The notes: generated by a model from the letters alone, not told the origin. A stretch of 64,000 nt of DNA from Candidatus Borrarchaeum yapensis (GCA_016840515.1 JAEOSF010000014.1:1-64000), one strand, 5' to 3'; positions 23,441 to 64,000 are shown, counted from the first letter of the stretch. Made by a program: numbers and translations.

Positions 23441-23592
23441 TACCGGTTGATCCTGCCGGACCCGACCGCTTTTGGGATGGGATTAAGCCATGCAAGTTGT
23501 GCGCTCCTAGCTGATGGAGAGCGGCGAAAAGCTCTGTAACGTGTAGTTAACCTCCCCTCAGGACGGGCATACCCTCGGGAAACTGAGGATAA
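23441..23592 (+). rRNA. 16S rRNA, 5' fragment only; gene interrupted
   Basis: Begins with the archaeal 16S 5' end (CCGGTTGATCCTGCCGGA), continues through GGGATTAAGCCATGCAAG and CGGGAAACTGAGGATAA (around helix 8), then diverges abruptly at about 23593 into AT-rich sequence with no 16S similarity. No downstream 16S signature (GTGCCAGCAGCCGC, the 900-region or the 3' end) appears anywhere to position 64000. Either an element of more than 40 kb is inserted here, or this is a fragment or an assembly join. Confidence 0.9.
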
Positions 23593-23824
23593 CTAAAAAT
23601 CATATTATAAAGAAAGAATCTAAAATAAATTATTTTATAGAGATGTTGTGTTTGGTATGTTATCTAAAGAGAATTAGAAGGTTTTTGAGTCTTTTAAGAC
23701 ACGAGAATCAAGTTAGGATAAAAAATGAATAAGATAGGAAAAAAGAATCATCATTAGTATAACCATAATTGACCATTAATTTCTTCTACGATCATATAAA
23801 AAAAGAAAGAGTGTTAGGAGTAGT

Positions 23825-25150
23825 TCATTTTTTGAAAAATTGAGATAGAGTTGGGCGGATGTTGGATATTTTTTTGTTGACATATTCTTTTAGAAAGGTG
23901 CAATAGTGATCCCTTACGCTGTATTGACCGACATTGACGGTTTTGGCGATCAGTTTCTGCGTTAAAATATGAATTTTATTGTATCTTTCTGCTAGTATAA
24001 GATCGGATGCATACAGTGCAGCAGAGGCGTAGGTTCTCGGATGTCTCCCAGAGTTCTTGAGTGATGTTGCATCAAGTGCCTGTTGAGCGGTCTTTTGTAG
24101 TAGAAATCTGTATGTTTCAATCTCCCAGTTTTGTTTAATAAGGCGTGATTTGATCTCGGGATTTGCTAGCAGATCACTTATTAGGTCGGATAAGAAGTCC
24201 TCGCTTTTTCTGCTCACATGAGATATGACATTCATTTGTTTGAGTTGTTGAAGTGTTTTGATGACTGAACTGTTTGAAATCTTATGACCTAAAATCTTAA
24301 TGTTGTCGATAATCTGTTGTAAATAAAAGGGTTCTTTATTCTCCTTAATGGCGGTATAGAGACAAGCGCATATTAAAACAGGGTGTGTGCTATATTCATC
24401 TTTAGAGAGTGTGTTTAAACTTTTTCGATATAAGTAAGCTGCTCTCATGTAAGTTTGTTCTGTTACTTGTAGGTTTGAGCAGGCACGCCTTAAGGATTTT
24501 AATGTTCTGTACTCTGATTCGCGTCCTTTGATTCTTGCTCGAAAGTTGAACAAACGCTTAAGTTTATTGAAGTGGTATTTAGTTTCATTGGGAAGAAGGT
24601 TGTTCTGTCCGTCACGTTTAATGACTGAGTAGTTGAAACCTATGAAACTCCCTAGACCGTCCACCATATCAACTCTCTCGCCTGTACTTACAAATTGCCT
24701 GCCCAAGTCTCCCTGTGCGGTGTTAATAGAAATAATAAATTCGGGTGTGACAAAAGCCTTGTCACCCTCCAGTCCACAAGCTTCACAAACATATACTCCT
24801 TGATATTGAGAAGTGGGGGAACCGCACTCGTCGCATGGTGGGTTTCCTTGATTGATTGTGAACCCAACAAGTTTGTGATTCTGATACTTCGGAATGATGA
24901 TGATTTTTTCAGTAAGGTGAAGAATGATGTTCATTATGCTTCTGAGGTTGTATTTACCGTTAAGAGCGCTGTGAATCTCGTCATATGTGTATAATTTTCC
25001 CTGCTGGTTGAGTTCGTGAATCTTTGCAAGTACCTCGTTTTTTGCTACTTCATCAAGTTGGTTAGTAGTGACAGCGAGTAGTTGGTTGCCATCAATAATA
25101 AATTTGGTTTGTTTGTTGTACTCGCGTAGTTTATTTCGATTTTTTTTCAA
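23825..25150 (-). CDS. TFB-like transcription initiation factor with N-terminal extension and PIP-box-like tail (TFB1)
   Basis: About 441 residues. Residues 106-125 hold a TFIIB-type zinc ribbon (CDEC...CEAC), followed by a B-finger-like linker (GLGSFIGF) and two cyclin-like repeats (about 190-290 and 320-420; ARIKGRESEYRTLKSLRRACSNL...SRHPRTYASAALYASDLI). The first about 105 residues are an added domain that looks winged-helix-like. The last ten residues RPTLSQFFKK fit a PCNA-interacting peptide (xxxLxxFF). TTG start with GGAGGG nine bases upstream. Its own promoter is A-rich and host-like. Probably directs polymerase to element promoters; clamp coupling is inferred. Confidence 0.85.
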   Translation of the reverse strand: MKKNRNKLREYNKQTKFIIDGNQLLAVTTNQLDEVAKNEVLAKIHELNQQGKLYTYDEIHSALNGKYNLRSIMNIILHLTEKIIIIPKYQNHKLVGFTINQGNPPCDECGSPTSQYQGVYVCEACGLEGDKAFVTPEFIISINTAQGDLGRQFVSTGERVDMVDGLGSFIGFNYSVIKRDGQNNLLPNETKYHFNKLKRLFNFRARIKGRESEYRTLKSLRRACSNLQVTEQTYMRAAYLYRKSLNTLSKDEYSTHPVLICACLYTAIKENKEPFYLQQIIDNIKILGHKISNSSVIKTLQQLKQMNVISHVSRKSEDFLSDLISDLLANPEIKSRLIKQNWEIETYRFLLQKTAQQALDATSLKNSGRHPRTYASAALYASDLILAERYNKIHILTQKLIAKTVNVGQYSVRDHYCTFLKEYVNKKISNIRPTLSQFFKK

Positions 25151-25195
25151 CTCGATCTACCCTCCGAATTAAACTATACTTAAATTAACATTAAT

Positions 25196-25215
25196 ATCAT
25201 ATATAAGTTTTTCTG
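25196..25215 (-). promoter_or_regulatory. TFB1 promoter with A-rich BRE
   Basis: On the minus strand AGAAAAACTTATATATG: an A-rich BRE next to a TATA box about 46 bases before the start codon. It differs from the GT-rich flank of most other element promoters. Confidence 0.6.
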
Positions 25216-25373
25216 AGAGATTTTTGGGTTATGTTATGTGATAAAATAGGATGATATGGGATTAAGTGAACGGGAAATGATTTTAGGAAAAAGGAGAATA
25301 CATGACGGAAATCGATTTTTTAAAATTGTCCTTAAAGTGACTTTAAAGAATGTTGAGATGTGAGTAAGAATAA

Positions 25374-26433
25374 TTAACGACAGTAGAAAAGAAGATTGGA
25401 CTGGTAGGTATCCTCGAAGGCGTTAGCCCATCTTATGTACTGCTTGGAGATGCAATTAAAGCTCGAATCGAGCAATAGCTCGTCGGCAATAAAAAATGGT
25501 CGGGACGTGTCATAACTCTCTATGCCGAAGGAGCGACCGTGTGTGGAAGTGTACTCCGAGTTTAATTGATGGGCGTAGTTGATTATTTCCTTTCGAGTTT
25601 CGCCCAGCAGGTGAAGGCGGGGGCGGTTGCCGTAGGGAATAAGGTGTATTTTTGGGTGGAAGATGTGAAACATTTCTTTGAGAAGTCTTTTGCTATCCCT
25701 GAGGTTGAACTCGTGCAAGGGGAAGGTCACCGCAAGGTCGATCGGACTGCATTCAAAGGAGTGGTCTTTGAGGAAACAACGTACACGCTGGGCGGATTGA
25801 CGAAACTCCTTACAGGTGGTGCCCTGAACCGTGAGGCGAAAGGTATAGCATAACCCGAGTTGTGCAAGGGTGGTGGTGTGTATCTTTTTAATGTAGTCAA
25901 GAAGTAACTCGTAACTTTGGAGGCTTTTTTGCGGATTCTGTACAAAATCGGGAAGGATGATCTGATAATGGAGAATTTTGGTTTTACGGACTATTTCCAA
26001 TTGATGTTTAAAGCGGATGATGGGATCAGAGGGGATTCTGGAAGATTTTCCGTTCTGTATTGCTTGGAACAGTTGGAAGGCACCGTTATCGATCCATAAT
26101 TCTGTGATACGCTGTGTTGAAAGGATTTTATCGGAGGCGTAGCGGTGGTAATCGAAGGGTGAGGAACATTCCCCGTAGATATTGACCATCAGTTCGTTGA
26201 ATCCGTTGATTAATTTCTGCCCTTTGTCGTTTACCATGTGCTGATACCAGTCAAGGTCGCGAGTGGTGATGACGGGCACCAGTCGGGGGTTTATATGACG
26301 TACCTCACCATCGAAGAAGTCGATGTTATAGACTGAACCATAGTCGAGTAGACTTGATGATTCTGCCCAGCTTTTCGGGGATGAGGTGTCCTCATCGAGT
26401 TCGAGTGATTCTTCATAAACACATTTTGTCATT
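25374..26433 (-). CDS. TGT/DpdA-like TIM-barrel protein (possible 7-deazaguanine transferase)
   Basis: About 353 residues, start ATG 26433 behind GAGGGG. Motifs in the order expected for tRNA-guanine transglycosylase-like barrels: WIDNGAFQ (residues 113-120, cf. DSGGFQ with the first catalytic Asp), IILPDF (158-163), PRLHLLGE (271-278) and FGIESYDTSRPF (302-313, the second Asp region). Phage DpdA enzymes of this fold place 7-deazaguanine bases in DNA to resist restriction. No preQ0 synthesis genes are in the window, so the base would come from the host archaeosine pathway. Family call moderate; DNA as substrate is inferred. Confidence 0.5.
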
Positions 26434-26477
26434 ATTGCCCCTCTGTGTATAATCTCAAAGTTCATATTCTAAATGAA

Positions 26478-26492
26478 TATATAAAGACCACG
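26478..26492 (-). promoter_or_regulatory. Element-type promoter of the TGT/DpdA-like gene
   Basis: Minus strand CGTGGTCTTTATATA: TATA box with a GTGGTC upstream flank, the clearest example of the element consensus. Confidence 0.65.
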
Positions 26493-26585
26493 AAAATAAA
26501 AAAAGAAAATATTAAGATACTTCTCTTCTCTAATGTAGTTCTAAGTGTTGTGAAAAGGAAAATAGAATAAAAAAAGAAAAATAGA

Positions 26586-27755
26586 TTAGAGTGAAGTTAT
26601 GTAGAAGTTGGACAGTTGGTTTTCCTTTGTGAAAAGGATCGCGTCTTGAAGCGTCTTAAATTCTTTTTGTTCTTTGCCTTTCGATGTGGAGTAGGTTACG
26701 CGGTGTGTGTCATGTTCTTCTGGTGTTGGTATCATCTTTTCTTCTTTTTGTCTATCACTTATTTTTTCGATGAGTTGATAATTGTTATCTGCATCTAAGA
26801 AAACAACTTCCTGTTGTTTTAATTCTTCTAAAGCGTCCAAAAAACTGTAGTATTCATCTTTGGTATCGAACTTTTGTTTGATGAGAGCTCGCCTTAGTTC
26901 GTATTGATCGCCTCGTATTTCTGATATTATCCATTCTTTTAATTTGTCAATCTCGGTTCTTATCTCATCAATTATAATGTATTTCTGTCTTTTTTCATCG
27001 AATTTGATGATCTTATTTTCTATTAGAAATTCAAAGGCTGGTTTGAAGTATATTTCGTGGGGTTCTTTTGCGAATAGTCCTCCTTTTATTGCTCTCTGGA
27101 GTTCTTCTGTGTTTTCGGATTTGATTTGAGTCAAAATCCAATTATTGTATTTTTCTGAAAGAAAAGCATGGTTATTTCTTTGTTCTTCTGTATGTTCGTC
27201 TTCTGTGTGTTGTGTTTTTGAATGTGAATTGTTTAAAGTGGATTCTGCTTCTATTTCATCTTCTTCTAAGTTAAGGGTATTAATTTCGGTATCTGTATCG
27301 GTTGCATTTTGCTTGACTACGAAAAAGTATCTATTCATTGAAGAATCAAAGGCTAGCAATCCTTCTCGATACATTTCTTCAAAGACTGTTCGACATAGTT
27401 CTTGCACTTCAGCGGGTGTGTTGGTATCGTTGCGGTTTATTATACTTAGTAATTGAACTTGGTCGGTGTCATCGATCTGAGAAATGATCCAATTTCTCAT
27501 TTTTGTCCTATGTGTTTCCTCTTTTGTTGGTTTTGTATCTGTTGCTGTTTTATGACTGATTGTTTTAGTTTTTGTGGTGTTTATTGTGCAGTAGTATCCG
27601 TTTGAAATTAGTGAGTTAACGATGCACTGTTTACACAAATCTGTTGTGATATCATCTTCTGAATGAATACAGTGATTGTGACATTCACGTAGTATTAGTT
27701 CAATTTCTACCTCTGGTTCGCGTTTTTTTGTTTTCGGTTTTTCTAGTATTTGCAT
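26586..27755 (-). CDS. Protein with cysteine cluster, three winged-helix-like repeats and a C-terminal RYxV module
   Basis: About 389 residues; ATG 27755 behind GAGAGG. N-terminus: CHNHC...CKQC zinc-type cluster (residues about 25-45). Then three related about 60-residue units starting WIISQI, WILTQI and WIISEI and ending in a hydrophobic wing (RYFFV, KYIII, NYQLI), separated by acidic linkers. The last about 40 residues (HRVTYSTSKG..FKTLQDAILFTKENQLSNFYI) match the end of the protein at 41761-42654 and the start of that at 54661-55605. Probably DNA-binding; no known family recognised. Confidence 0.65.
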   Translation of the reverse strand: MQILEKPKTKKREPEVEIELILRECHNHCIHSEDDITTDLCKQCIVNSLISNGYYCTINTTKTKTISHKTATDTKPTKEETHRTKMRNWIISQIDDTDQVQLLSIINRNDTNTPAEVQELCRTVFEEMYREGLLAFDSSMNRYFFVVKQNATDTDTEINTLNLEEDEIEAESTLNNSHSKTQHTEDEHTEEQRNNHAFLSEKYNNWILTQIKSENTEELQRAIKGGLFAKEPHEIYFKPAFEFLIENKIIKFDEKRQKYIIIDEIRTEIDKLKEWIISEIRGDQYELRRALIKQKFDTKDEYYSFLDALEELKQQEVVFLDADNNYQLIEKISDRQKEEKMIPTPEEHDTHRVTYSTSKGKEQKEFKTLQDAILFTKENQLSNFYITSL

Positions 27756-27789
27756 GATTATTCCTCTCATAGAATTTCATCAAAGAATG

Positions 27790-27803
27790 TATATAAAGAC
27801 CAC
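27790..27803 (-). promoter_or_regulatory. Element-type promoter
   Basis: Minus strand GTGGTCTTTATATA, 35 bases before the start of the winged-helix-repeat gene. Confidence 0.65.
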
Positions 27804-27842
27804 TAAGTTTCTATGTCTAAATGAAAAAAAAGAAAATGAGGT

Positions 27843-28136
27843 TTAGAAAAGATTTGAGATTCTAGCGTGGATTTTTTTGAGAAGAAATTTGAAGTAAGAG
27901 TAGTGTTGTTTTTTGTTTGTCTTGTGGTGTTTCTTATGACCTAGCGCGCAGGAAAGGCATAGAATAACCTTGCAGATTTTACAATAAAACCCTCTGCGTT
28001 TGATCTTGCCTAACACTCCGAGAAACGCATCGCCGCAGATGACGCACTCGAAATTCTCTTCGTCCAAGGTGTTCAAAATCTCATCTTCAAGTTGGCACAG
28101 GGGTACTACGCCCTCAATAAATGAGTCGTCCTTCAT
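27843..28136 (-). CDS. Small zinc-binding protein (B-box/FYVE-like cysteine pattern)
   Basis: About 97 residues. An acidic N-terminal half is followed by CVICGDAF...FYCKICKVILCLSC-x4-HKKHH, eight or so Cys/His in a spacing like double-zinc treble-clef domains. Basic C-terminus. Sits six bases downstream of the DUF4314-like gene in the same transcription unit. Function unknown; probably binds nucleic acid or protein. Confidence 0.6.
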   Translation of the reverse strand: MKDDSFIEGVVPLCQLEDEILNTLDEENFECVICGDAFLGVLGKIKRRGFYCKICKVILCLSCALGHKKHHKTNKKQHYSYFKFLLKKIHARISNLF

Positions 28137-28141
28137 TTTGA

Positions 28142-28339
28142 TTACTCCGTTATGACTTTGTAGCGGTCGATGCCTTCAAGTAGAGCTAGTTTGCTTCCGT
28201 CGTCCCAATTTACCCAGATTTGTTTCTGACCTCCGAGAATGGTGTCAATTCCTGTGACGGTGCCTGTATCGCCTCGTTTGAGGTGAGTGTATGGATCGCT
28301 GGTGTGTGTGAGTTCTATTCGATCGCCGATTTTTACCAT
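28142..28339 (-). CDS. DUF4314-like small protein
   Basis: About 65 residues: MVKIGDRIELTHTSDPYTHLKRGDTGTVTG, then IWVNWDDGSKLALL. This SH3-like fold with the T-SDPYT-L-GD-GTV pattern matches the DUF4314 family, frequent in phages and plasmids. ATG 28339 is chosen because GGAGG precedes it by eight bases; an upstream in-frame TTG would put the Shine-Dalgarno inside the gene. Confidence 0.7.
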   Translation of the reverse strand: MVKIGDRIELTHTSDPYTHLKRGDTGTVTGIDTILGGQKQIWVNWDDGSKLALLEGIDRYKVITE

Positions 28340-28387
28340 ATTGACATCCTCCAACAATTTTTGAACTAGAAAAAAGGAAAAAAAGGG

Positions 28388-28765
28388 TTAGTATTCTTCT
28401 GGAAGTAGGATGGTGTAGTATCCATGATCGTTTAAGCAGATGAAGACCTGTTGTTGCTCTCCTGATGGAAGTTCAATCATGCCCTCATAAAAGCGGTCTT
28501 GTTGCTCGGTGAAATTATTACTCCGTTTCTTTACTATTGCCAAGCATTGATTGAGAAGGTCGTACAGGTTAGGGATGTTTAAGCCCTCGTCGGTCTTGTA
28601 TCCCTTGCTCATGACTCCCATGGTGACATGAGAAAAGAGTCCTTTCTCCCAGTCGTTGTTTATGGTGAACAGATAGAACAGGGTGCCATCTTCCATCGCG
28701 TCGTCGGATGTGTAAACTGAGATCGGTTCGCCAAACAGATCATTTTCATTGTGTGGAATTGTCAT
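28388..28765 (-). CDS. DUF6573-like small protein
   Basis: About 125 residues; ATG 28765 directly after GGAGGG. NDLFGEPISVYTSDDAMEDGTLF near the start and a C-terminal TILLPEEY resemble the DUF6573 family of phage and plasmid proteins (FGE-I-YTR--A--DG... and ---LPEDY). Role unknown; such genes lie in early or accessory regions of phages. Confidence 0.6.
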   Translation of the reverse strand: MTIPHNENDLFGEPISVYTSDDAMEDGTLFYLFTINNDWEKGLFSHVTMGVMSKGYKTDEGLNIPNLYDLLNQCLAIVKKRSNNFTEQQDRFYEGMIELPSGEQQQVFICLNDHGYYTILLPEEY

Positions 28766-28808
28766 ACCCTCCGATTGGTGTATTTCACTATCCAATTTCT
28801 AAATGCCT

Positions 28809-28822
28809 TTATAAGCACCCCG
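28809..28822 (-). promoter_or_regulatory. Element-type promoter variant
   Basis: Minus strand CGGGGTGCTTATAA, about 43 bases before the DUF6573-like start. Confidence 0.5.
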
Positions 28823-31567: not shown

Positions 31568-32338
31568 CTATTCGCCTCCCTCGATCCGTGGAGCTAAGAA
31601 GTAGTCGAGTTGATATGTTGGAGCTAGGATCCCAAGTTTAAGGGGCATATCGGTGGAGTATTCGATTTTAAGGTAGTCAAATGCGCCGACGGTTTTAGTC
31701 ATATCACTGAGGTATTTGAGGGCGTAGATAGCCTGAGATTCCGCTTTTACTTGGTATTCTCTGAGATTATCGCTTTGTTGTGACTCTGAGGCATCAATGA
31801 TAACTTCGACCTCTCCCGAGTCGCCATCAGAGGTGACTTTGATTCTCTCGGGTGTTGCTTGTAACGTGATGTAGTCGCCCACTACTTCGGCATCCTTAAG
31901 GATGTTCTTGAAGGTGGATGCTGACATGGAAATCAGGGTGTCGAATTTGATGTCGGGGATAGGGATATCCTCTCCGCTGTCCTCACCTAACAGTGAAAGA
32001 CTGAAATTGCGGGTAGCTTTTTCGGATTTGAGTTTGAGGTTCAGTTTGTTCTTAGTTTCATCAACGGTGAGTTCGAGGGTGTCGTCGTCGGTTGATCGTC
32101 GCATGATCTGCGTCATTTCTACCAGACTAACACCAAACGCTACTGAACCGTTGCAGTGATATTCCGTGAAGGAATTTGGTGAGAGTGCAAGATCAACCAT
32201 TGCTATATGAGCTTCATCGATAGCACGGGCATGGATGCCCTCGTCATCGGAGATAAAATGAATCTCCTTAACAAGAGCGGCTAATGACTCGGTGATGTTT
32301 TTCCAGATGTGTGCGTCAAGAGTGACTTTTACTACCAT
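31568..32338 (-). CDS. PCNA-like sliding clamp 1
   Basis: About 256 residues, the normal PCNA length. Archaeal/eukaryotic clamp features: N-terminal KVTLDAHIWKNITESLAALVKEIHF, EGIHARAIDEAHIAMVDLALSP (cf. D-SHVALV in the family), a central loop and a C-terminal YLKIEYSTDMPLKLG..YQLDYFLAPRIE (ending in the APRIE-type tail that receives partner peptides). Encircles DNA and recruits PIP-box proteins; FEN1 and possibly TFB1 of this element carry such peptides. Its promoter flank is GTTGTTCTCCTTAAATAC. A host PCNA must also exist elsewhere. Confidence 0.92.
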   Translation of the reverse strand: MVVKVTLDAHIWKNITESLAALVKEIHFISDDEGIHARAIDEAHIAMVDLALSPNSFTEYHCNGSVAFGVSLVEMTQIMRRSTDDDTLELTVDETKNKLNLKLKSEKATRNFSLSLLGEDSGEDIPIPDIKFDTLISMSASTFKNILKDAEVVGDYITLQATPERIKVTSDGDSGEVEVIIDASESQQSDNLREYQVKAESQAIYALKYLSDMTKTVGAFDYLKIEYSTDMPLKLGILAPTYQLDYFLAPRIEGGE

Positions 32339-33579: not shown

Positions 33580-34094
33580 GGCAACTCATCTCGCGCGTGC
33601 TGGTTCTTTTCTGCTTTTGCAAATAATTGGTTTAAGGTGGGTTGTATGCCTGCCCAGACCCTCCAGTTGTGGATGGTGGTACGATTGAAAAGGGTAATCT
33701 CACTATCATCGATTTTCTTGCGCTTCTTGGATGTTTTTTTGCTGGATGTTTCTTTTGGAATATGAGTTATCTCACCAATTCCCTCCTTACTAAGAGTCGC
33801 TTGTGAAACGAACTCGGTGTGGGTGGTGATATGATTGATCGTTTTCCCGGTGAATAAATTTGTCTGTGCGGTGGTGAGCGTCCTTTTTTTCTTGTTATTC
33901 CGATGGTTGTTGTTCTTGTGTTGTTTACGCTTTTGAAGAATGATGACCTCGCCCTCGATCAATGATGGGATCTTATATCTGATCGTGGGTTCCTCACTTT
34001 CTTTTGGAACGAGTAAACTGTCATCCCTTATTTCCTCAAGTTCTTGTGTGGTGAGTCGTTTGCCTTTCGAGTTGCCGATTTTCACTTCTGTCAA
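33576..34094 (-). CDS. Basic hypothetical protein downstream of PCNA2
   Basis: About 172 residues. TTG 34094 is taken as the start: it overlaps the PCNA2 stop (TTGA) and lies after GGAGG, so translation is coupled. Central region is Lys/Asn-rich (KRKQHKNNNHRNNKKKR) and may contact DNA. No family recognised. Confidence 0.6.
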   Translation of the reverse strand: MTEVKIGNSKGKRLTTQELEEIRDDSLLVPKESEEPTIRYKIPSLIEGEVIILQKRKQHKNNNHRNNKKKRTLTTAQTNLFTGKTINHITTHTEFVSQATLSKEGIGEITHIPKETSSKKTSKKRKKIDDSEITLFNRTTIHNWRVWAGIQPTLNQLFAKAEKNQHARDELP

Positions 34095-34843
34095 TTGGTT
34101 GCCTCCTGAGAACGATGGGCGAGATAGAAATGGTAATCGGTGAAGTCTATGCAAAACGAAATATTAAGATGGGTGTTGGCTAATGCTAAACGAAACTCCT
34201 GCTTATTGCTAATCACGTTAGCGCATTTCTTAAGGTAATTGAGGGTGTAGATGCCATGAAAGTGTGGTGTGTTATCCTGATGACCATTATCTTGATTCAA
34301 AGATACGTTATGAGAGGCGGTGCTCTCACCTTCAAATGACTCAAATGAAAGCTGATCATAGTCCGATTTGATGGCAACACATTCGCTTGCTACCTCGATG
34401 TCCCTTACTGCTTCTTTCAAGTTCTCGCCCAGAAGGTCGAAGGTGGCATTATACGGTTCGTCTGGAACGGGGAGGTCGGCGATCTCGGTGCTGATGAGAT
34501 GGGTTTTGAAACTACGAGTCATACCATTGTGCCGATAGTTCAGAATGAATTTGTTCTTGGATGTGTCGATCCTGATCTCAATATCGGCATTGGTGGTTAT
34601 CCGTCTGGCAATTTCAAGACAATTAGGAAGGTATATGCCAAAGTTTATCGCTTCATCGCAATGATAGGATGAAAAACATTCTCTTGGGAACACGATGTCG
34701 AACATGGCCGCTTGGGTGTCGTCACAGGTCTTGACATGAAGACCGTTTTGATTGGCATAAAAGCCAACTTCTTTGGTTAGTTTTTGTAGACATTCGAGAG
34801 TCGTTTTCCATGGTCGAATTGACTCTAAAGTCATAACAATCAT
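34091..34843 (-). CDS. PCNA-like sliding clamp 2 (diverged)
   Basis: About 250 residues with the PCNA layout: TLESIRPWKTTLECLQKLTKEVGFYANQNGLHVKTCDDTQAAMFDIVFP, a second domain from about residue 125, and C-terminal NISFCIDFTDYHFYLAHRSQ. It lacks the APRIE-type C-terminal end of PCNA1 and is more diverged. Archaeal clamps can be heterotrimers, so it may assemble with PCNA1 or the host clamp, or form a specialised ring. Own element-type promoter at 34886-34900. Confidence 0.85.
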   Translation of the reverse strand: MIVMTLESIRPWKTTLECLQKLTKEVGFYANQNGLHVKTCDDTQAAMFDIVFPRECFSSYHCDEAINFGIYLPNCLEIARRITTNADIEIRIDTSKNKFILNYRHNGMTRSFKTHLISTEIADLPVPDEPYNATFDLLGENLKEAVRDIEVASECVAIKSDYDQLSFESFEGESTASHNVSLNQDNGHQDNTPHFHGIYTLNYLKKCANVISNKQEFRLALANTHLNISFCIDFTDYHFYLAHRSQEATN

Positions 34844-38758: not shown

Positions 38759-39793
38759 GTGGTGAAATGTGTGTGCGTGGAAAAATTCTGCAATGAATGC
38801 CGAGGAAATATAGTCCTGAATAAAGGGGTTTACGTTTGTGAAAATTGCGGATTGGAAGTCGCCAAACATTACAAACATTATGTAGATAGTTCTTATCTCA
38901 TTACGATCGAGGGTAGCAGCGGTTGTGACGCGAGGCAGTATGTTGGTCTAGGAAGCAGAAGTGATGTAGTCGGAGGATTAGGAAGTTGTATTGGAAGAGG
39001 TAAGGGGGGGTATGAGACAGACTACAATAAGGTTCCAATTTCAAAAGAAACGGCAACTCGAATGAGACATTTGGATAGAATCTACAATTTCAGGGCTCGG
39101 ATACGTGAAAAAGAGTCTGAATATCGTGTATTGAAGTCGTTAAATCGGACGGTTGCGTTGTTACAAGTTTCACAAGAAACAAAGAAGAGGGCCGCCTATA
39201 TTTACCGTAAAGGAGTTAAGATTCTAGATAAGGATGAAATAACCACACACCCTGTCTGTATGACAGGAGCATTGTTTATCTCGGTGCGAGAGTACGATGA
39301 ACCAATTACATTGCAAGAGATCGCGAGAACGTTTGAGGAGTTAGGGCATAGAGTTCCTGTTAAAAGCGTGTTGAAGGTAGTTGAAAATTTAAAGAGGCTA
39401 CCAGGAGTCAAATTAAAAACCAGAAGAAGTGAGGCATATATTCCTCGACTTGTGAGCAAGATTGTTCGACACCCTGAGGTTGTGGAAAGACTTAAAAAAA
39501 GGAGGCTATCCGCTTCTGGATATCAAGAACAGTTGAAGCATCATGCACTAGCATTATTAGAAAGAATAAGTAGGGAAGAACGTGGGGGGAGGCATCCATT
39601 TGTGTTTGCGGTTTCATCAGTATATGCCGCAGATTTGTTACTCGAAGAGATTCTTGGCAGAAAACATCTGCTCACGCAAAAAATGCTGGCACGCATTACA
39701 GAAGTGGCGCAATATAGCATCCGTGACCATAATACCACCCTATTTAAGAAATGTATCTCGGAACTGAGTAGTACGGAGGCTCCTCTTGCGTGA
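38759..39793 (+). CDS. TFB-like transcription initiation factor (TFB2)
   Basis: About 344 residues. N-terminal zinc ribbon with Cys11, Cys14, Cys27 and Cys30 (CNEC...CENC), GLGSCIGRGKGG linker, then two cyclin-like repeats (ARIREKESEYRVLKSLNRTVALLQV..; HPFVFAVSSVYAADLLLEEI..). Shares with TFB1 the SEYR-LKSL-R core, STHPV/TTHPV and the C-terminal QYSIRDH segment, so both are paralogues distinct from typical host TFB. GTG start at 38759. It lacks TFB1's N-terminal extension and PIP-like tail. One of the few plus-strand genes; its 3' end overlaps the next minus-strand gene. Confidence 0.85.
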   Translation: MVKCVCVEKFCNECRGNIVLNKGVYVCENCGLEVAKHYKHYVDSSYLITIEGSSGCDARQYVGLGSRSDVVGGLGSCIGRGKGGYETDYNKVPISKETATRMRHLDRIYNFRARIREKESEYRVLKSLNRTVALLQVSQETKKRAAYIYRKGVKILDKDEITTHPVCMTGALFISVREYDEPITLQEIARTFEELGHRVPVKSVLKVVENLKRLPGVKLKTRRSEAYIPRLVSKIVRHPEVVERLKKRRLSASGYQEQLKHHALALLERISREERGGRHPFVFAVSSVYAADLLLEEILGRKHLLTQKMLARITEVAQYSIRDHNTTLFKKCISELSSTEAPLA

Positions 39794-42654: not shown

Positions 42655-42700
42655 GTGTATTCCCTCCAAGATAAAAGGCACAAACTATATTGAAGTCGGA

Positions 42701-42717
42701 TATAAAAACACAACGCG
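42701..42717 (-). promoter_or_regulatory. Element-type promoter
   Basis: Minus strand CGCGTTGTGTTTTTATA, GTTGTG flank plus TATA, 47 bases before the 297-residue gene. Confidence 0.55.
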
Positions 42718-42919
42718 AAAATAATTAGTATGTCTTGTTTCAAGAAAAATGGATATTACTTTAGAATCAGAAATAGTGTCGAAATTCACCCTTAAAACAA
42801 AAAAAAGTACATCCTAAACTCAAATGTAAACAAACATCATCAATTTAGATACTCAATTATTTTAGTGTGTTTGTTGAAATAAGCAAACTCACGGATTGAA
42901 ATTTTTATCAATAAGGCAA

Positions 42920-43400
42920 TTACTTGTTATTAAAGGGCGACGTAAGATGCGAATTGAGGGCGACAAGTATTTAATTAGAGACTATTTGTGTTCATCTCTC
43001 TAGTTTGTTATTAATTAATTTACTCTGAATTTTACGGGAAGGAAAAGAGCAATAACTTGATTAAAAGCAATCTAGAGAGCGATATGGAAAGAAATCTTAA
43101 AAGGAAAGAAAACCAATTGGTGGTTGTAAAGAATTCCAACGTATTTGTTATGAATCAGACAATAGAGAGCGATTTTGTTATCAATCATATTACCCCGTAA
43201 CTTAGATTGATGAAAACAGTATCATTCGTTGATTTTATGCGAGATATGATCGCTAAAATAAGAGAAGGATGTCACCCAAAAATAGAGTAACATAGCGATC
43301 TTGAATTTGTTATCGATTAGCGCGATGCGAGGTTTGGGGTGGCACGAGGCGGGAGCGTCATGTCGTTGTCATAGTATGCGCGCCCGATTGTTATGACCAG
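42920..43400. repeat. Iteron-like region, candidate replication origin
   Basis: The largest non-coding stretch of the element (about 1.1 kb, 42655-43753). It contains six copies of a TTTGTTAT-like motif (42923, 43004, 43144, 43174, 43306, 43387), the later ones followed by (C/G)AAT or CGATT, plus repeated AGAGCGAT/TAGCGATC and GGGCGAC motifs, and the inverted repeat TATGACC-AGG-GGTCATA near 43392. All six copies are in the same orientation. Iterons with AT-rich DNA are typical of plasmid and viral origins; assignment is inferred. Confidence 0.5.
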
Positions 43401-43753
43401 GGGTCATAGTGTGATGTTTTCATTAAAATGACCTTAATTCGTACTAAACAATATCAACTCTATGTCGTTCTTATAACCTGATTGGTTGTGTTAGACTTTT
43501 AGAATACTGCACAACATTAAGTAGATAAATTAATGAAATAAAGGTTCAATATGATTGATGTTCAAAGAAAAGAGACCACGATCCAAAACAAGACGTTGTT
43601 ATTTTATATGTGCTTAATATGACCTAAGAAGTTATTGAGAAAAAAATAAAACAAGCAAGTTTTAAACTGCCATTAAATTACACTAAACAGACTTGATACT
43701 GATTAAAACAGGATTAATAAACGCATAAAATGATGTTTTTGAAATAAAAAAAC

Positions 43754-47127: not shown

Positions 47128-48141
47128 CTAGGCCATCACGCAATTGCATCGTATACGCCGAAAGTTCATGCTAAGTGCCTTCCATATACCAAGAGTTTCT
47201 TTACACAACCCGACCTTACGATAATTGTAATTATCTTTCAAATACTGAATTAAAGTCAAATACATAGTAAAGCGAATATCAAATGGAATTTTTTTACCCC
47301 AGTTAGAGGATTCGGACAAATATTTAACCCATGATTTATCCGTCGCTGCATTGATTGTGCTTTGCAGACCCCGCAAGGAGCCGAGAGTGATTGAATCGGG
47401 GACGAATTTTGAGAAAATATCATCTATAAGTGAAAGATATTTCTCATTCCAGTTCTCTACTGATACCATCGGGTCGATCCTGAGTCTTGTCACATAGCCT
47501 TTTTCATGTACTCTTTTTGCTGCTGCGATTCTTGATTTTGGTGACGGTGCCTTTTTCTCCCATCTTTTAGCAACATCATGGGCGTTTACAGAAAAACTAA
47601 CGATGAACCGCTGTGTATTATCGAGAGTTAACAGGTTCTTGACGTTGTTCGACTTTGTGAGTAACAAGATTTTATGGTGGAGTTGAGGATCATGTTCTTC
47701 GAGAATATCGTAGACAAACTTGGTAAATGGAGGATCGAGATGTTCTGCCACAAAGGAATCCGATAGTTCTCCAGAACTCAACAAAGTTGAGCCTTGGTAC
47801 TTGGTAGCTAATGCGACAAGATGTTTTTCTAGTTTAGCAAAATCCTTTATATGTGGATTGCCTAGCCATTCTGGGAAGAACCTGAGAGTACCCCTTAAAT
47901 AACACCATGCACAATCAAATCGACACCCAGCGGCCCATTTTAGTTGCAAGAAATGAGGACATACGACATCTGTGTCTTTTCGAGGAAATGGTGTCTTGGA
48001 GAAACGAGTGATTATCGAACCATCGCTAACCTTAATCAGCGTTTCTCTTACCTTACCATCTAGATTGCGTAACTTGCCGGATTTGACTCGTAGACCTGAT
48101 TTTCGAGCAACCGTTCCACCATGCAACGTCCTTTGTGGTAT
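47128..48141 (-). CDS. Radical SAM protein, photoproduct-lyase-like
   Basis: About 337 residues. GCRFDCAWCYL gives the CxxxCxxC iron-sulphur site of radical SAM enzymes in the CYL context of spore-photoproduct-lyase-like proteins. Downstream strands (LLSSGELSDSF, HKILLLTKSNN, RFIVSFSVNAHDVAKRWEKKAPS, VTRLRIDPMV) complete the barrel. Photoproduct lyase repairs UV thymine dimers; homologues of unknown substrate are common. The frame reads back past TTG 48126 to an ATA at 48141, nine bases after GGAGG, giving MPQRTLHGGTVARKSG; ATA is preferred. Likely a repair gene of the element. Confidence 0.75.
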   Translation of the reverse strand: MPQRTLHGGTVARKSGLRVKSGKLRNLDGKVRETLIKVSDGSIITRFSKTPFPRKDTDVVCPHFLQLKWAAGCRFDCAWCYLRGTLRFFPEWLGNPHIKDFAKLEKHLVALATKYQGSTLLSSGELSDSFVAEHLDPPFTKFVYDILEEHDPQLHHKILLLTKSNNVKNLLTLDNTQRFIVSFSVNAHDVAKRWEKKAPSPKSRIAAAKRVHEKGYVTRLRIDPMVSVENWNEKYLSLIDDIFSKFVPDSITLGSLRGLQSTINAATDKSWVKYLSESSNWGKKIPFDIRFTMYLTLIQYLKDNYNYRKVGLCKETLGIWKALSMNFRRIRCNCVMA

Positions 48142-56923: not shown

Positions 56924-57949
56924 TTAGAAAAAGCGATCCATTGTTGATTGTCGGGTATCTGTAGCTTTTTCAAGTCGCTCGATGGCGTTTTCGATTCGAT
57001 TTTTAGCAAAATCATGCTCTTCGCATAGAAATTCGGTTAGTTTTTCGCGTTTAGGTTGACGCCATTTCAGATCATAGGCATCGGTTACTTCAGGATTTTT
57101 GAATATGTTATATATTTGATCGACGGGAACGTCGTTTAACACGTTTTTTTCTTGTATAATGGTTCCCAGCTCACCGTATTGCTTGATCCATTTAAGTGCC
57201 GTTTTCGGTCCAACTTTTGCCACACCTTCGTTAAAGTCGGTGCCAATAAGAATACCAATACCGATTAGTTGTCCAAGAGTGATCTCTAGATGCTCAAGTA
57301 GTTGATCTAGGTAGATCAGTTCAGGCTTAATCTCTACGTATGTCTGTTTGCGTGGTAGTTTGCGACGTCCTGTGGATGTGAGATTCCTAACAAATTTTTC
57401 GGCATTAAATAACAGACTATCCAGATCTCGAGAAGCAGTTGCCCAGACATCACCCTGACTATTCATATATGCGGCTTGTGCTTCACCTTCTGAAGGTGAT
57501 TGCACAAATGGGATCCCCATGTGTGATAGTAGCGACTTGGCATCGGAGATCATATCAGTATCGAATCGCGAGGTTGCCTGAGCGTGTCTACGAGCAGATT
57601 CATAATCCCCTCTTGCGAGTGAAGCAAGCCATTTTTCTGTTGCGGTGTCCTTAATCTGTTTTCTTTCCTTGATGGTTTCACTTTTTAATTCTGGAGGTTT
57701 GCCATCAAAAATAAATACAGGACGTATGTTCAGTTCGACAAGGTTAACAGTACGGTAGAACAATCCGTTTAGGTGTGACGTCACTCTTCCCTTTTTATCC
57801 TTAAGTGGGTGTCCATCAGTTTGGCGGATTATAGATAAAAATTGGTACAAAGTATTCATTGCGTCAACGGCGATGTCTTTACCGCTGAGATCTCTTAGTT
57901 CAATTTGATGAACTGAGTCCTTTAAGAGAGGACTAATTTTAACCCCCAT
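56924..57949 (-). CDS. Flap endonuclease FEN1
   Basis: About 341 residues, normal FEN1 length. N domain MGVKISPLLKD, IAVDAMNTLYQFL (Asp of the active site), PVFIFDGKPPELK; I domain IPFVQSPSEGEAQAAYMN (catalytic Glu pair), ATASRDLDSLLF (SxDxD), and the helix-two-turn-helix GIGILIGTDFNEGVAKVGPKTAL. It ends in a perfect PCNA-interacting peptide QSTMDRFF (334-341). Removes Okazaki flaps with PCNA; the element supplies both. Archaeal type. Confidence 0.95.
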   Translation of the reverse strand: MGVKISPLLKDSVHQIELRDLSGKDIAVDAMNTLYQFLSIIRQTDGHPLKDKKGRVTSHLNGLFYRTVNLVELNIRPVFIFDGKPPELKSETIKERKQIKDTATEKWLASLARGDYESARRHAQATSRFDTDMISDAKSLLSHMGIPFVQSPSEGEAQAAYMNSQGDVWATASRDLDSLLFNAEKFVRNLTSTGRRKLPRKQTYVEIKPELIYLDQLLEHLEITLGQLIGIGILIGTDFNEGVAKVGPKTALKWIKQYGELGTIIQEKNVLNDVPVDQIYNIFKNPEVTDAYDLKWRQPKREKLTEFLCEEHDFAKNRIENAIERLEKATDTRQSTMDRFF

Positions 57950-58874: not shown

Positions 58875-58904
58875 GAGCCGTTGATAATTAGAGGGTAACA
58901 ATTA

Positions 58905-59108
58905 ATGCAAGACGATTGGAGGAGCCTAAGAAAACTGAGTTATTTGCTGCCAATAACCGGGATTTTGATGTTCAGCATCGTAGCTTTCATTTCTTATAGT
59001 ATTGGGACTGAGTTTGTTGTTCATCTTGAGTTTTTGGTGATCATTTTTGCAGCTCTTGGGGTTCTAATAGTGATAATAGGAATGCTTCTCCTAAAAAATC
59101 GTTTATAA
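58905..59108 (+). CDS. Small membrane protein, two helices
   Basis: About 67 residues: LSYLLPITGILMFSIVAFISY and FLVIIFAALGVLIVIIGMLLL. ATG; ends just before a shared promoter region. Function unknown. Confidence 0.5.
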   Translation: MQDDWRSLRKLSYLLPITGILMFSIVAFISYSIGTEFVVHLEFLVIIFAALGVLIVIIGMLLLKNRL

Positions 59109-59147
59109 GCACCACTACAGCACACGAAATTTAGTGTTTGGAATTAA

Positions 59148-59447
59148 CTACAGTTTTCTTATGAGTGCCTCATTAATTGCCTCTAACTCGGGTTGTAATA
59201 ACTCTTTCAGGACCAGTAATACCGATTTTGGATATCCATCATATTTCTGATTAAACGGTCTAATCTCACAAAGGTTTATGGCTAAACGCGCGAGTAGAGA
59301 GTTCAAAGGATCCCTCATTTGAACCCGTTTAAAGAATACATCACGACCAACTTGCCTGTATTCTTCTGCGGTTAGAACGTCTACGCTTAACTCCGTTACC
59401 TCATCGGTTGGCGTTTCATCTTTTGGTTTCTTGCCTAATAGTTGCAT
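59148..59447 (-). CDS. Hypothetical protein, 99 residues
   Basis: ATG after GAGGAGG. Acidic start, then EEYRQVGRDVFFKRVQMRDPLNSLLARLAINLCEI; helical. Own promoter CCTTCTTTATATAC at about 59502-59515. No family recognised. Confidence 0.55.
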   Translation of the reverse strand: MQLLGKKPKDETPTDEVTELSVDVLTAEEYRQVGRDVFFKRVQMRDPLNSLLARLAINLCEIRPFNQKYDGYPKSVLLVLKELLQPELEAINEALIRKL

Positions 59448-59662
59448 TTTTTTACCTCCTCGGTGGTTGGTGTTTTGTCTCTGTGATTAATGCGCGGAAA
59501 ATTGTATATAAAGAAGGAAATTTAAAATCAGGAAGAAAAAATAGTCTACTTTTGCATAATATACTACAAAAAAGAGCGATATTCCAAGTAACCCAAGAAA
59601 CTCCAGCTCACCCCATATCAGACCTATGGGTGATAATTAAATATGCTTTATGATCTTTATAA

Positions 59663-59941
59663 TCAAATAACCATTATTCCTAGAACTATTACAAGCGCGA
59701 AAACCCCACCAAGAATGGTAGCGAGAATATCGTTTGCCTCGACGTGTTTTGTAAGTCGCGGGATGTCGTAAAGTTCTTTCCCTATAGACGCGATTATCAC
59801 TACCATGAAACTAATAACCAGATTATAACGACTAACGACATTCCCGATCCAGATTAGATCAAGAAACATCAATATCACGAAGGTAATTATGTAAATTATA
59901 AATCCTGCTATAATATGCTGAATTTTGTCCTTTGGGATCAT
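59663..59941 (-). CDS. Three-helix membrane protein of phage type
   Basis: About 92 residues from ATG 59941: MIPKDKIQHIIAGFIIYIITF, a middle helix, KELYDIPRLTKHVEANDILATILGGVFALVI. The DK-H--AG start with EAND-AT-GG end resembles small phage membrane proteins. Its start overlaps the upstream stop. Function unknown. Confidence 0.55.
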   Translation of the reverse strand: MIPKDKIQHIIAGFIIYIITFVILMFLDLIWIGNVVSRYNLVISFMVVIIASIGKELYDIPRLTKHVEANDILATILGGVFALVIVLGIMVI

Positions 59942-60489
59942 CTTACATCTTCTGTTTGCCACACATCTAAGAAATTCTCTGTAGGAAATCGCAATGATTG
60001 TAAGGTGCCGTCAATTTTCACATAACGTTCTTTTCTTTTTCGCGGGTTTCCAAAAATTAAGTAAAGTACAGCAATTATGATGATGGCAAGGCTTATTGTA
60101 TCCCACCACGAAAATATGTGAGATGGGAACACAAGGATCATCACAAAGACGAATGGGACGAAAAACGGGATAGACATGAGTAATTTTGCGTCAAACAAGT
60201 GAAAAGTGGAGTGAATAGAAAATATCGAATCGGGGGCGAGGATAGTATCATCCCAAGTTTTATTTTTTACTGCATTAGATGTATCCGAGGCGTGAGGGGA
60301 TACGTCCTTTGAAATGATCCACTTATCATAGGGGACATGACATCGAAACACCCTGCCACATTTTACGCAGACCTTCTCGGAGGCCAATTGATAGGTTTCT
60401 TGGTAGGGATATCGAGATGACGACACCGCAAAAGACGATATCTGTGTAATTATTGCTTTTCTGCCGCTACAGGACCAATGCTCACACAT
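59938..60489 (-). CDS. Zinc- and membrane-domain protein
   Basis: About 183 residues; ATG 60489 after GAGAGGGG. N-terminal CEHWSCSGR and KVCVKCGRVFRCH (zinc site), then two hydrophobic helices (MSIPFFVPFVFVMILVF, TISLAIIIIAVLYLIF) and a basic cytoplasmic tail. Coupled to the downstream membrane gene. No family recognised. Confidence 0.55.
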   Translation of the reverse strand: MCEHWSCSGRKAIITQISSFAVSSSRYPYQETYQLASEKVCVKCGRVFRCHVPYDKWIISKDVSPHASDTSNAVKNKTWDDTILAPDSIFSIHSTFHLFDAKLLMSIPFFVPFVFVMILVFPSHIFSWWDTISLAIIIIAVLYLIFGNPRKRKERYVKIDGTLQSLRFPTENFLDVWQTEDVR

Positions 60490-60716
60490 ACAAACCCCTC
60501 TCAACTCTTCGGTTGATTTTTTACCCCAATATAAGAGATGGTCACGAGATATTTAAATTTTATAGGAAAAAACTGTTCATTTAAAGTGACATGAATCACC
60601 AAAAATGCGATTTTCTTTGAATTAAACTCAAGCTTTTTTTTAATTTATTTATAAAATAACGCATATTATGTTATTTTGGCAAATTCTTTTGCGTTTAAAC
60701 ATCTAAGAGGCAATAT

Positions 60717-62339
60717 GTGAAGATATATATAGGAGAACAGTATGTAGAGGACGGCATGGATTCAGAAACAACCACTCCGTCAAAAGCCAACGAGACCACT
60801 CTGATGCGTGAATGTGATAGTATTGCTAAATTGCTTAGCGTTCCATCTGATGATGAATCACAACTAGATCTTCACAGATACGATTCATTAAATAAATCAG
60901 AACGTCTTATGCGACTTTTTCTTGATTTATACTTACCAAAGAATGTATTTCCTGAAATCATCGCAGAAGACCTCGCCTATTTAGTCGCGTATAACCTTCT
61001 TGCTCATGATGAAAGGGAGAAACTTTTAAATGATTGGTATGTACTTCGAGGTTTAGACCCCTTGCGAGAAACCGAAGCATTTATGCGCTTTCCAGACGGA
61101 ACGATTTACCGAAGCATTCACGACCTACTTTGTGCCAATTCAATAACATTCGGCGAGTTCCTTTCTATTCTGTTGCAAAGAACGAAAAGGATTGCCAAAT
61201 ACAAAAAAGAACCGTTAACTTGTTACGAGGTAACACGACTTATAGATAATGCCTATATGTCTTGGAAGACGACACTTTCTGCAGAAGATATCAAAGTAGT
61301 GAAATGTGTGCAGAAAATCCCTCTCATTAAAAAAAAGGAAATTTCAAATATTTTAAAATTGAATGAAAATACCGTATCGGGTATAATCAAACGACTCAAG
61401 ACCGCGAATAATTTTTCTGTTCAAGGCCGGCCAAGAGAGTCTGCCTTGGGTATGCAATCAGTGATATTTAAGACGGGGGAAAGACTTTCCATCGACTTCC
61501 CATATTTGCTATCCGTTCAAGAACTTAGAGCAGGTAATGTTATTTATGACTATGCTTTCCGATTACCAAAACACACGGACACGATCTCTCCGTTAGAAGA
61601 TGTCGTTACTGTGATGGAAGATAACATAAACAACTTTTCACTTTTGAAATTCATGGGATGCAAACATTCACTGTCGTTCCGATATTACAACCCAATAAAA
61701 ACCTGCTGGATGATCGATTGGGTAGCTTGGTCTTTGCTATTAAAGGATAAGTTAAATTCGGGTAAATCTGACAAGAAAACACATTCTTCCAAGATTGATA
61801 ATAAAGAATTCAATCCACACTTCTTCGATGTTAAGGATTTGCACATTCTTAATTGCTTTCATAATGATATGCGTGTTCCGATGACAAAGTTGGGAAAGCA
61901 ACTTGATATGACCTCGCAAGGCATTAAGAATAGGATAATACGCTTGTTGGATGAAGGTTTTGTCGATACCGCTACGATTTTACACCAAATTGGTCTCGAA
62001 GAACAAATTATACTTGAGTATAATGGTGATGAAGACTACACACAGACTTTAAAATCAGCGATTTATGAGTTACCGGAGAGTTTCACTTACTTAATGACCC
62101 CACTGCGACCAAAAACACCAAATCAAATTCTTGTTGCTTGGTTGCGACTTCCAGCAGGAAGTTTAATGAATCTTACAAAAACTCTCACGCGGATTTTAGG
62201 CAATAAAGGCAACATTTGGATCGCGCATCGATTTCAATTTAGAGCCAGCACAAGACCGCTCCCCATCGAGATGTTTGACCAGAAGTCAAACAGGTGGCGC
62301 TGGGATGAGGAAGTACTCAAAAACTTAATAATTAGTTAA
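60717..62339 (+). CDS. Transcription regulator with two helix-turn-helix domains
   Basis: About 540 residues. First HTH around 200-240 (KKKEISNILKLNENTVSGIIKRLKT), second at about 375-420 (DLHILNCFHNDMRVPMTKLGKQLDMTSQGIKNRIIRLLDEGF, Lrp/AsnC-like winged helix), then an alpha-beta C-terminal domain. GTG start after GAGGC. Promoter ATTTATTTATAAAAT with T-rich flank at about 60641. One of the few long plus-strand genes; likely a master regulator of the element. Confidence 0.65.
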   Translation: MKIYIGEQYVEDGMDSETTTPSKANETTLMRECDSIAKLLSVPSDDESQLDLHRYDSLNKSERLMRLFLDLYLPKNVFPEIIAEDLAYLVAYNLLAHDEREKLLNDWYVLRGLDPLRETEAFMRFPDGTIYRSIHDLLCANSITFGEFLSILLQRTKRIAKYKKEPLTCYEVTRLIDNAYMSWKTTLSAEDIKVVKCVQKIPLIKKKEISNILKLNENTVSGIIKRLKTANNFSVQGRPRESALGMQSVIFKTGERLSIDFPYLLSVQELRAGNVIYDYAFRLPKHTDTISPLEDVVTVMEDNINNFSLLKFMGCKHSLSFRYYNPIKTCWMIDWVAWSLLLKDKLNSGKSDKKTHSSKIDNKEFNPHFFDVKDLHILNCFHNDMRVPMTKLGKQLDMTSQGIKNRIIRLLDEGFVDTATILHQIGLEEQIILEYNGDEDYTQTLKSAIYELPESFTYLMTPLRPKTPNQILVAWLRLPAGSLMNLTKTLTRILGNKGNIWIAHRFQFRASTRPLPIEMFDQKSNRWRWDEEVLKNLIIS

Positions 62340-62386
62340 TTTGATTTCTTTTTGGTTTGTTAACATGAGTAAAATCAAGGATTAGA

Positions 62387-62656
62387 TTATCGACTCTTAT
62401 AATCGCTGGATTTTTCTTCGTGGTCGATGAGGATCTTACAACAACGACCCTGAAAATAGCATACGCCCTTGCAATCCCAGTTTCTGGGCGTTTTTGGATC
62501 GAGTGTGCATTTTGAACGAATTTTTGGATCATCATCCACATAAAAAGGACATTCACCGTATTCAGAGGTGTATGAACTCAGTAATGACTTATTCCGATCT
62601 TGTTTAAATTGTGGTGAAGGACTGTTATTTCCTCCTATGTCATTTTCATAGGACAT
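62387..62656 (-). CDS. Small cysteine-rich protein
   Basis: About 89 residues. Cysteines in CPFYVDDDPKIRSKC..NWDCKGVCYFQGRCC, six to seven in 45 residues, could hold an iron-sulphur cluster or zinc. GGAGG-like start. No family recognised. Confidence 0.55.
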   Translation of the reverse strand: MSYENDIGGNNSPSPQFKQDRNKSLLSSYTSEYGECPFYVDDDPKIRSKCTLDPKTPRNWDCKGVCYFQGRCCKILIDHEEKSSDYKSR

Positions 62657-62893
62657 GGTGTTTATCCCCCCTTTGAGGTTCGTATATTTTTGTGGATCAC
62701 TTTAAATATCTTGATTTATCTTCCACGATAACATCGCTTTCATCTTTAGCGATGATTTAAACCGACTTGTGTTTTCGGTATGATGTGTGTTCAGTTGAAA
62801 AAATCCCGAATTACGGACCTTTCCTTGTGATTTTGTGCAAACTCGTGAGACCACGCATCAATAAATTATCACATCAGTATACTAATGTTTCAA

Positions 62894-63328
62894 TTAAAAA
62901 AACGCTGAAATAACTGTACAATCCGCGAACTTCCTTCTCTTGGTTTTTGTGCGGGGTTCATCCACGAAACCAAAAAGAACGGTCTGTCCTTCTGAGTTAT
63001 GGGATTTATTGAAATACAATCGGGTTTCTTGTGGTCCTGCCTTGATGTTATCGGGAAAGACCTGCGGGACTACCCGTCGCATCAAATCTATCACTATATT
63101 AACGTCAATGCCTTGCGCCTCATATTCTTTGACTAACCGATACATGAAACCGTCTTGATGCAGTTTATTTTGCAAGGCATGTAGTCTATCCATGATAATT
63201 TTAAGTTGAAAAGCGGTGATGAAAGTGGTTTCGTTAAACGGCGTGACTTTTCTTAAATTGGTACTCTCAGGCTTGTAGTAATTAATAGTGGTTGCATCAA
63301 ACAAATGATTTTGAACGCTCCTTGACAT
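62894..63328 (-). CDS. Hypothetical protein, 144 residues
   Basis: Helical middle (FQLKIIMDRLHALQNKLHQDGFMYRLVKEYEAQGIDVNIVIDLMRRVV) and C-terminal strands. No family recognised. Confidence 0.5.
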   Translation of the reverse strand: MSRSVQNHLFDATTINYYKPESTNLRKVTPFNETTFITAFQLKIIMDRLHALQNKLHQDGFMYRLVKEYEAQGIDVNIVIDLMRRVVPQVFPDNIKAGPQETRLYFNKSHNSEGQTVLFGFVDEPRTKTKRRKFADCTVISAFF

Positions 63329-63502
63329 AGTATGAGTATCTAGATGATGATTTTTCCCTTAAAAGTCTTGGAGGTATCTTGTTCAAGTGAAATCGCCTCT
63401 TTTTTGACAATTTAACTCGACATAATTTCTGATTTCTTGAGTAAACGGACTGAACAAAAAGAGAACTCATGCAAGTAAACAATTTACTATAGTAAGTTAC
63501 GT

Positions 63503-64000
63503 CTAATGAAAGATATTGTGGATCTTTTCTGCCTTCTTCTTTCCGATGCCATGGACCGCCTGTAAATCCTTAAGAGTGGCGTTGGCTATACATTGAATTG
63601 TTTTAAAATGTTTGAGAAGTGTTTCTGCTAACTTTTCGCCTATGAGAGGTATCGAGGCAAGAGCATAATGTTTCAAATTCTTCTCTGGTAAATGAATACC
63701 TTTTGGCTTTCTTCGCCATCGTCCGTGTGGGGACTTGTTGTTTTTACCCTGTTTTTCTCGACTGATAGTGATCTCCAAAAATGACTTGAGAGCATCTTGG
63801 TAATTTTCAATGGGGACGATAGGTATATTATACACAAAAAGTACCTCTTGAATAGCCCCCGAAACCTGATTCCAAAGCGCTGAGATGTCGTTTTTGCGTA
63901 TGTCATGTGGTATATTTTCATAAAACTCACTGGGAACTCCTTGGACAAGGAGCATACAGCGTCTTATAGGATGATTGAGTACATAGCCATTTTTCAAGAT
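63503..64000 (-). CDS. Hef/XPF-type structure-specific nuclease, C-terminal part
   Basis: The frame is open to the window edge, so this is a partial gene. Visible: end of the ERCC4-type nuclease domain (CMLLVQGVPSEFY, helices to about 110) and a tandem helix-hairpin-helix domain (YALASIPLIGEKLAETLLKHF; DLQAVHGIGKKKAEKI). The catalytic GDxxxExKxxxD motif must lie beyond the window. Cuts branched or forked DNA, usually with PCNA. Completes the element's replication-repair set with PCNA and FEN1. Confidence 0.85.
   Translation of the reverse strand: MLKNGYVLNHPIRRCMLLVQGVPSEFYENIPHDIRKNDISALWNQVSGAIQEVLFVYNIPIVPIENYQDALKSFLEITISREKQGKNNKSPHGRWRRKPKGIHLPEKNLKHYALASIPLIGEKLAETLLKHFKTIQCIANATLKDLQAVHGIGKKKAEKIHNIFH

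Follow-up and report, generated by a model that had tools for sequence, protein, structure and literature searches.

An archaeal 16S rRNA gene start joined to large element DNA in Candidatus Borrarchaeum yapensis: possible replacement of an rRNA operon

In Candidatus Borrarchaeum yapensis, the 5' end of an archaeal 16S rRNA gene stops abruptly at position 23588 of the window and is followed by different DNA up to the end of the contig at 71,960. The window is the whole stretch of DNA analysed here, that is, the first 64,000 bases of the 71,960-base contig C13, which belongs to a bin (G000) of 3.63 Mb in 124 contigs. Our best explanation, to which we assign a probability of slightly under one half (about 0.47), is that a large integrated element truncated or replaced the rRNA copy at this place and that a working copy lies elsewhere. 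We consider it rather probable that the join of 16S and element exists in cells, an estimate that operon replacement shares with a clean insertion of the element. If the join is real, the inside of an rRNA gene is a very unusual landing place for an element, and a large element has cost this Asgard archaeon, whose sister possesses just one rRNA operon, the operon at the ancestral site. This would imply operon relocation, and the relocation of rRNA by mobile DNA would become directly testable. In addition, the analysis describes a large host-adapted Asgard element with TFB and replication genes of its own.

The 16S stump matches the Rfam archaeal SSU model from model position 1 (E 7.6e-28 for 23440-23600, a stretch ended near the break). 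Rfam scans of the whole window miss it, because a 5' piece that breaks off in helix 3 gets a low score in any scan that does not allow for truncation; only truncated-end scanning finds it. A syntenic gene assigns the window to the Asgard genus Borrarchaeum, and colinearity with the closest relative, Ca. Borrarchaeum weybense (G002, contig C5), ends exactly at 23588. The preliminary description had placed the break after about 152 bases, extending the consensus match through the letters ATAA after GAGG; these fit the general archaeal consensus but not that of the genus Borrarchaeum, which has GAGGTCAATTCCC or GAGACTAATTCC. This mismatch to the genus, together with the end of colinearity, therefore puts the break after about 148 nt of 16S; the abrupt break itself is as first described.

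Position 31 of the stump is T, where all 19 other Asgard 16S genes compared (G002, G003 and 17 others) have A, and this change, A31T, counts for reading the stump as dead. Decay does not go beyond A31T and the loss of 2 nt in a loop, which counts against the integrated-element reading. The stump differs from B. weybense by five substitutions, four of them on the weybense side. Gauging pseudogene decay against the leader was uninformative, with 6 changes in 201 positions of the leader versus 5 in 147 of the 16S, the latter mostly on the weybense branch.

At the same locus B. weybense has an intact 16S-23S operon, the single one in its genome, and thus an uninterrupted, empty site. Its 16S is 2,666 nt long and intron-bearing, its 23S is 4,804 nt long, and 11 kb of DNA separate the operon from the RNase P RNA gene (rnpB) downstream. 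No colinear counterpart of the 10 kb downstream of the B. weybense 23S occurs in the B. yapensis bin. Two of the clean insertions that set the left part of the window apart from B. weybense lie at 18390-19658 and 20594-22174, and the former carries a TnpB/Cas12f-like gene. A tRNA-like gene at 20402-20534, seen only at a relaxed threshold, has insertions of about 33 and about 36 nt and is probably a multi-intron tRNA.

The far side of the locus lies on another contig of the bin, C79, which is colinear with B. weybense for about 15 kb from rnpB onward, colinearity beginning 5 nt before the RNase P RNA. On its rRNA-facing side (C79R), 18.6 kb of this contig bear the element signature, and a TFB gene lies within them. 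No 23S was found before rnpB on C79, and no 16S from nt 149 onward was found on C13 or C79. The interval from 16S to rnpB holds element DNA at both ends, with at least 67 kb between the stump and rnpB, on separate contigs. C13 and C79 leave the chromosome on opposite sides of the locus for DNA of one kind, which makes a random chimeric join at 23588 unlikely. Two genes in the 23S-rnpB interval of B. weybense are related to genes of C13 right of the break (C13R) and of C79R (47%, E 4e-20; 39%, E 5e-6), so that this interval is a plausible hot spot for elements and may be used repeatedly. C79 also encodes a PAPS reductase-like protein (C79:28983-30125) next to a weakly DpdA-like protein (C79:30289-31335, E 0.005), a pair of possible DNA base modification genes.

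Apart from a 46-nt fragment on contig C9, the 3.63-Mb bin has no other match to 16S or 23S; the rest of the 16S gene, which the preliminary description would have sought in the neighbouring sequence, was not found in the bin. From 23589 to 71,960 there are no rRNA matches beyond one 18-mer. This is an exact 23S match at window 34385-34402, inside the second PCNA gene, and is probably due to chance (E 0.005).

The earlier suggestion of more than 40 kb of element DNA past the break is supported by the gene content and by a switch of oligonucleotide signature around the junction, and the extent on C13 is 48.4 kb. In tetranucleotide signature, C13R, C9 and C79R group together (r 0.78-0.89), with correlations to the left flank of 0.42-0.46. 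The gene set (Table 1) includes three TFB genes over C13R and C79R, two PCNA genes, FEN1/XPG, an ERCC4 nuclease, RadA and an SMC-like protein, and C13R also encodes many small proteins of no recognised family. The element belongs to the host lineage, because one of its PCNA proteins is 62% identical to that of the host genus. TFB 1 and the C79 TFB are both transcribed outward, each toward its own junction; their promoters are 96% identical over 82 bp, while the proteins are 38% identical. Such shared promoters ahead of diverged proteins suggest a shared or autoregulated TFB circuit.

Replication genes are divided between contigs, with two PCNA genes, FEN1 and RadA on C13 and both primase subunits, PriS and PriL, on C9; no DNA polymerase gene was seen in the element stretches. 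The long AT-rich non-coding stretches at 42,700-43,750 and at C9:18500-19500 have a 154-bp core (81%) and TTGTTATNAAT-type repeats in common, and both may be replication origins, as judged from sequence features. No transposase was recognised in the element stretches, and Pfam and partial PHROGs scans of C13R and C79R gave no capsid or packaging genes; a HerA/terminase-like ATPase is found on C9 only. Searches of viral contigs and GTDB genomes returned no relatives of the element proteins, and the exact junction-side pattern was absent from the viral contigs; four viral contigs matched in a RadA search and share only RadA with the element. The junction-side protein encoded at 25374-26465 occurs elsewhere only as a fragment, in a genome of the same class (G004). 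A small contig of that genome bears homologues of a single gene from C13R and a single gene from C9.

Table 1. Features of the window, of the remainder of its contig, and of the cassette related to C9. Coordinates are those of the window unless another contig is named.
Feature	Position	Strand	Evidence or remarks
Host chromosome upstream of the rRNA operon and 16S leader (ABCE1, PFK, NMD3, epimerase, tRNA-Glu, others)	1..23439		91% identical to and colinear with B. weybense C5 save for three clean insertions
16S rRNA 5' stump, nt 1-148	23440..23588	+	RF01959, 100.5 bits; alignment with G002, G003 and 17 other Asgard 16S ends
GGAAACTGAGG, final 11 nt of the 16S match	23578..23588	+	Also the first 11 nt of the C9 16S fragment (C9:2580-2622, minus)
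Element DNA	23589..64000, on to contig 71,960		No synteny with G002; oligonucleotide signature like C9 (r 0.89) and C79R (0.78), unlike the left part (0.46)
TFB (TFIIB-like) 1, read toward the junction	23825..25150	-	Pfam TFIIB 2.7e-6; NCBIfam TFIIB subfamily 5.5e-10; 38% identical to C79 TFB
TFB 1 promoter region	25154..25235	-	96% identical to the C79 TFB promoter (C79:26938-27019)
PCNA sliding clamp 1	31568..32338	-	62% identical to host-genus PCNA
PCNA-like clamp 2	34091..34843	-	Profile match
TFB 2	38759..39793	+	39% identical to TFB 1; NCBIfam TFIIB 1.9e-9
Candidate replication origin, about 1 kb, AT-rich, non-coding	42700..43750		Three TTGTTATNAAT repeats; 154-bp core 81% shared with C9; putative function
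Spore photoproduct lyase-like radical SAM protein	47128..48126	-	Profile match
FEN1/XPG flap endonuclease	56924..57949	-	Profile match
540-aa protein with Lrp/AsnC-type winged helix	60717..62339	+	Profile match
ERCC4/XPF-type nuclease with HhH	63503..64000 (to contig 64,372)	-	Profile match
RadA	contig 65,324-66,286		Same contig, past the window; profile match
SMC/Rad50-like protein	contig 68,622-71,027		Same contig, past the window; profile match
Cassette copies	G000:C9 1298-8941; G000:C46 1-4500; G002:C4 747822 and 906355; module G004:C203 110-240		

The 16S fragment on C9 (C9:2580-2625, minus strand) is a 43-46 nt copy of 16S nt 141-186 that is altered at conserved sites and lies between two repeat modules. 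It starts at GGAAACTGAGG, the same 11 nt that end the stump on C13, and is followed by element repeats. We rejected C9 as a plain right end of the insertion, since 16S does not go on there. A short repeat of the junction, proposed earlier for the right end of the element, is absent from the C79 boundary; the 11-bp sequence is common only to the C13 junction and the C9 fragment. The modules around the fragment are part of a cassette that recurs in this family. It encodes a 1323-aa helicase-Cas1 fusion, a protein of RAMP/Csm3 type and a 274-aa protein with repeat modules of about 150 nt (GGTCTGACGCC core) on either side, along with LRR genes. This cassette is possibly an undescribed Cas1-linked system. 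The 16S fragment is found in the C9 copy and in none of the others, and RNA of the C9 module has no unusual folding stability (z -0.33).

The preferred reading is that a large replicon of the host lineage, mobile now or in the past, integrated at the rRNA locus. It would span everything between 16S nt 148 and the 5' end of rnpB, and if it does, what is left of this 16S copy is a dead 5' stump. The replicon may first have lodged between the rRNA genes and rnpB, beside the operon, where B. weybense has element-like genes too. Recombination between element and operon, or a deletion, would then have removed the rest of the 16S and the 23S, presumably by means of host-type recombination functions, and the RadA and nucleases of the element could have favoured such an event. 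We prefer recombination or deletion because no integrase domain was found with Pfam in 86 proteins of C13R, C79R and C9, and because no attachment repeat is present at both ends. C13R, C79R and C9 would form one element, although the unassembled middle leaves room for several. Because the sister has one operon, the cell presumably needs a working operon at another site, which would either have escaped binning or lie within the unassembled middle of the element. The single operon of the sister and the absence of a second copy from the bin count against operon loss.

Short-read assemblies fail at rRNA operons, and the join might accordingly be an artefact in which the true order is 16S-23S-element-rnpB. 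In that case a real element follows an intact operon, which the assembler left out by joining nt 148 to element DNA. This is the main rival to the preferred reading, and we hold it less probable than that reading. The sister species has an intact single operon at this place and element-like genes between 23S and rnpB, and the bin lacks the 23S and the remainder of the 16S, the usual outcome where assembly or binning of rRNA operons fails. At least one 16S fragment, that of C9, sits on the element, and a second could have produced a false join. However, the contig runs across the join without a gap, and no universally conserved part of the 16S lies at nt 148, the break preceding any 16S stretch long and conserved enough to halt an assembler; where contigs of other genomes end in 16S, they mostly do so nearer nt 345-380. 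Moreover, C13 has no second copy of the junction word, and A31T at an invariant base would be unexpected in a working gene. The B. weybense study used metaSPAdes for assembly (PMC9723677), and the elements known from Heimdallarchaeum adjoin the 16S gene rather than lying inside it (PMC8813620), which again suits a skipped operon. A chance fusion of the chromosome with an extrachromosomal element that is not integrated, confined to position 23588, would suit the plasmid-like replication genes and candidate origins, but it is very improbable given that the opposite flank of the locus enters the same kind of DNA on a different contig.

The preliminary description had the element lying within the 16S gene, and of this the element-type DNA holds; DNA of that kind was found at the other flank, on C79, too. 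A clean insertion does not fare as well, there being neither a repeat at both ends nor an integrase. Operon replacement or deletion, or an assembly skip, fits as well or nearly as well as a clean insertion with the remainder of the 16S beyond it. Site-specific integration at an 11-bp core, GGAAACTGAGG, would make C13 one junction and C9 a decayed reciprocal trace, with 16S-23S beyond the right end. It draws on the start of the C9 fragment, the sole further piece of 16S in the bin, at exactly the 11 nt where the C13 match to 16S ends, a positional coincidence that we estimate at about 2%. It is more elegant than recombination or deletion but less supported, and we hold it improbable: the C9 fragment is just 43-46 nt long, has changed conserved sites and runs into element repeats instead of 16S, no integrase domain occurs among the proteins scanned, and C79 lacks 23S before rnpB. 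The same C9 copy of nt 141-186, in a repeat-module array beside the helicase-Cas1 fusion and a Cas7-like protein, and with the junction falling in the same 11 nt, might instead mean that the element targets the host 16S on purpose, with RNA or homology guiding its integration into the rRNA gene; the working operon of the host would then lie elsewhere or on the element itself. We give such targeting a very small chance. Least credible of all is a giant intron or a split 16S gene whose 148-nt 5' piece is functional and is joined or assembled in trans. The genus Borrarchaeum does have several introns in its 16S, but B. weybense has none at nt 148, no Rfam intron family matches at the junction, the size is far beyond that of known rRNA introns, and A31T lies within the piece. 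The earlier view that this is not an ordinary intron thus agrees with the 48.4-kb length, the lack of 16S nt 149 onward on C13 and C79 and the lack of an Rfam intron match.

Among known systems, archaeal rRNA introns (bulge-helix-bulge or group I introns, with homing endonuclease; for group I, PMC6125680) likewise insert within the rRNA gene, but the Borrarchaeum insert differs in size, position and gene content and gave no intron signal in the Rfam scans. Elements that use tyrosine recombinases, such as SSV, pT26-2 and the thaumarchaeal iMGEs (PMC8371274; PMC6563490), are also large and located at structural-RNA genes; they usually restore their target, unlike the present case, in which no integrase was found. 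The Borrarchaeum element may also be compared with extrachromosomal replicons. Methanoperedens plasmids and Borgs are large and have much host-like genetic machinery, as does the element described here. They are extrachromosomal (PMC9674854), whereas both ends of the Borrarchaeum element appear to abut the chromosome, and the likeness is one of kind. Similar in setting are HeimM2 and HeimV2 of Heimdallarchaeum, Asgard mobile elements at a 16S locus that lie between the only 16S gene and a tRNA-Arg gene and leave the 16S intact, HeimV2 being 44 kb long (PMC8813620). They differ from the Borrarchaeum element in lying outside the 16S and in their giant-gene and viral content, which is not seen here. 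The targets listed in two surveys of archaeal integration are tRNA genes, protein genes and intergenic sites, and the main texts make no mention of rRNA genes (PMC8371274; PMC6563490). Given Heimdallarchaeum and these surveys, the kind of element is therefore known, and an rRNA gene as its target would be new.
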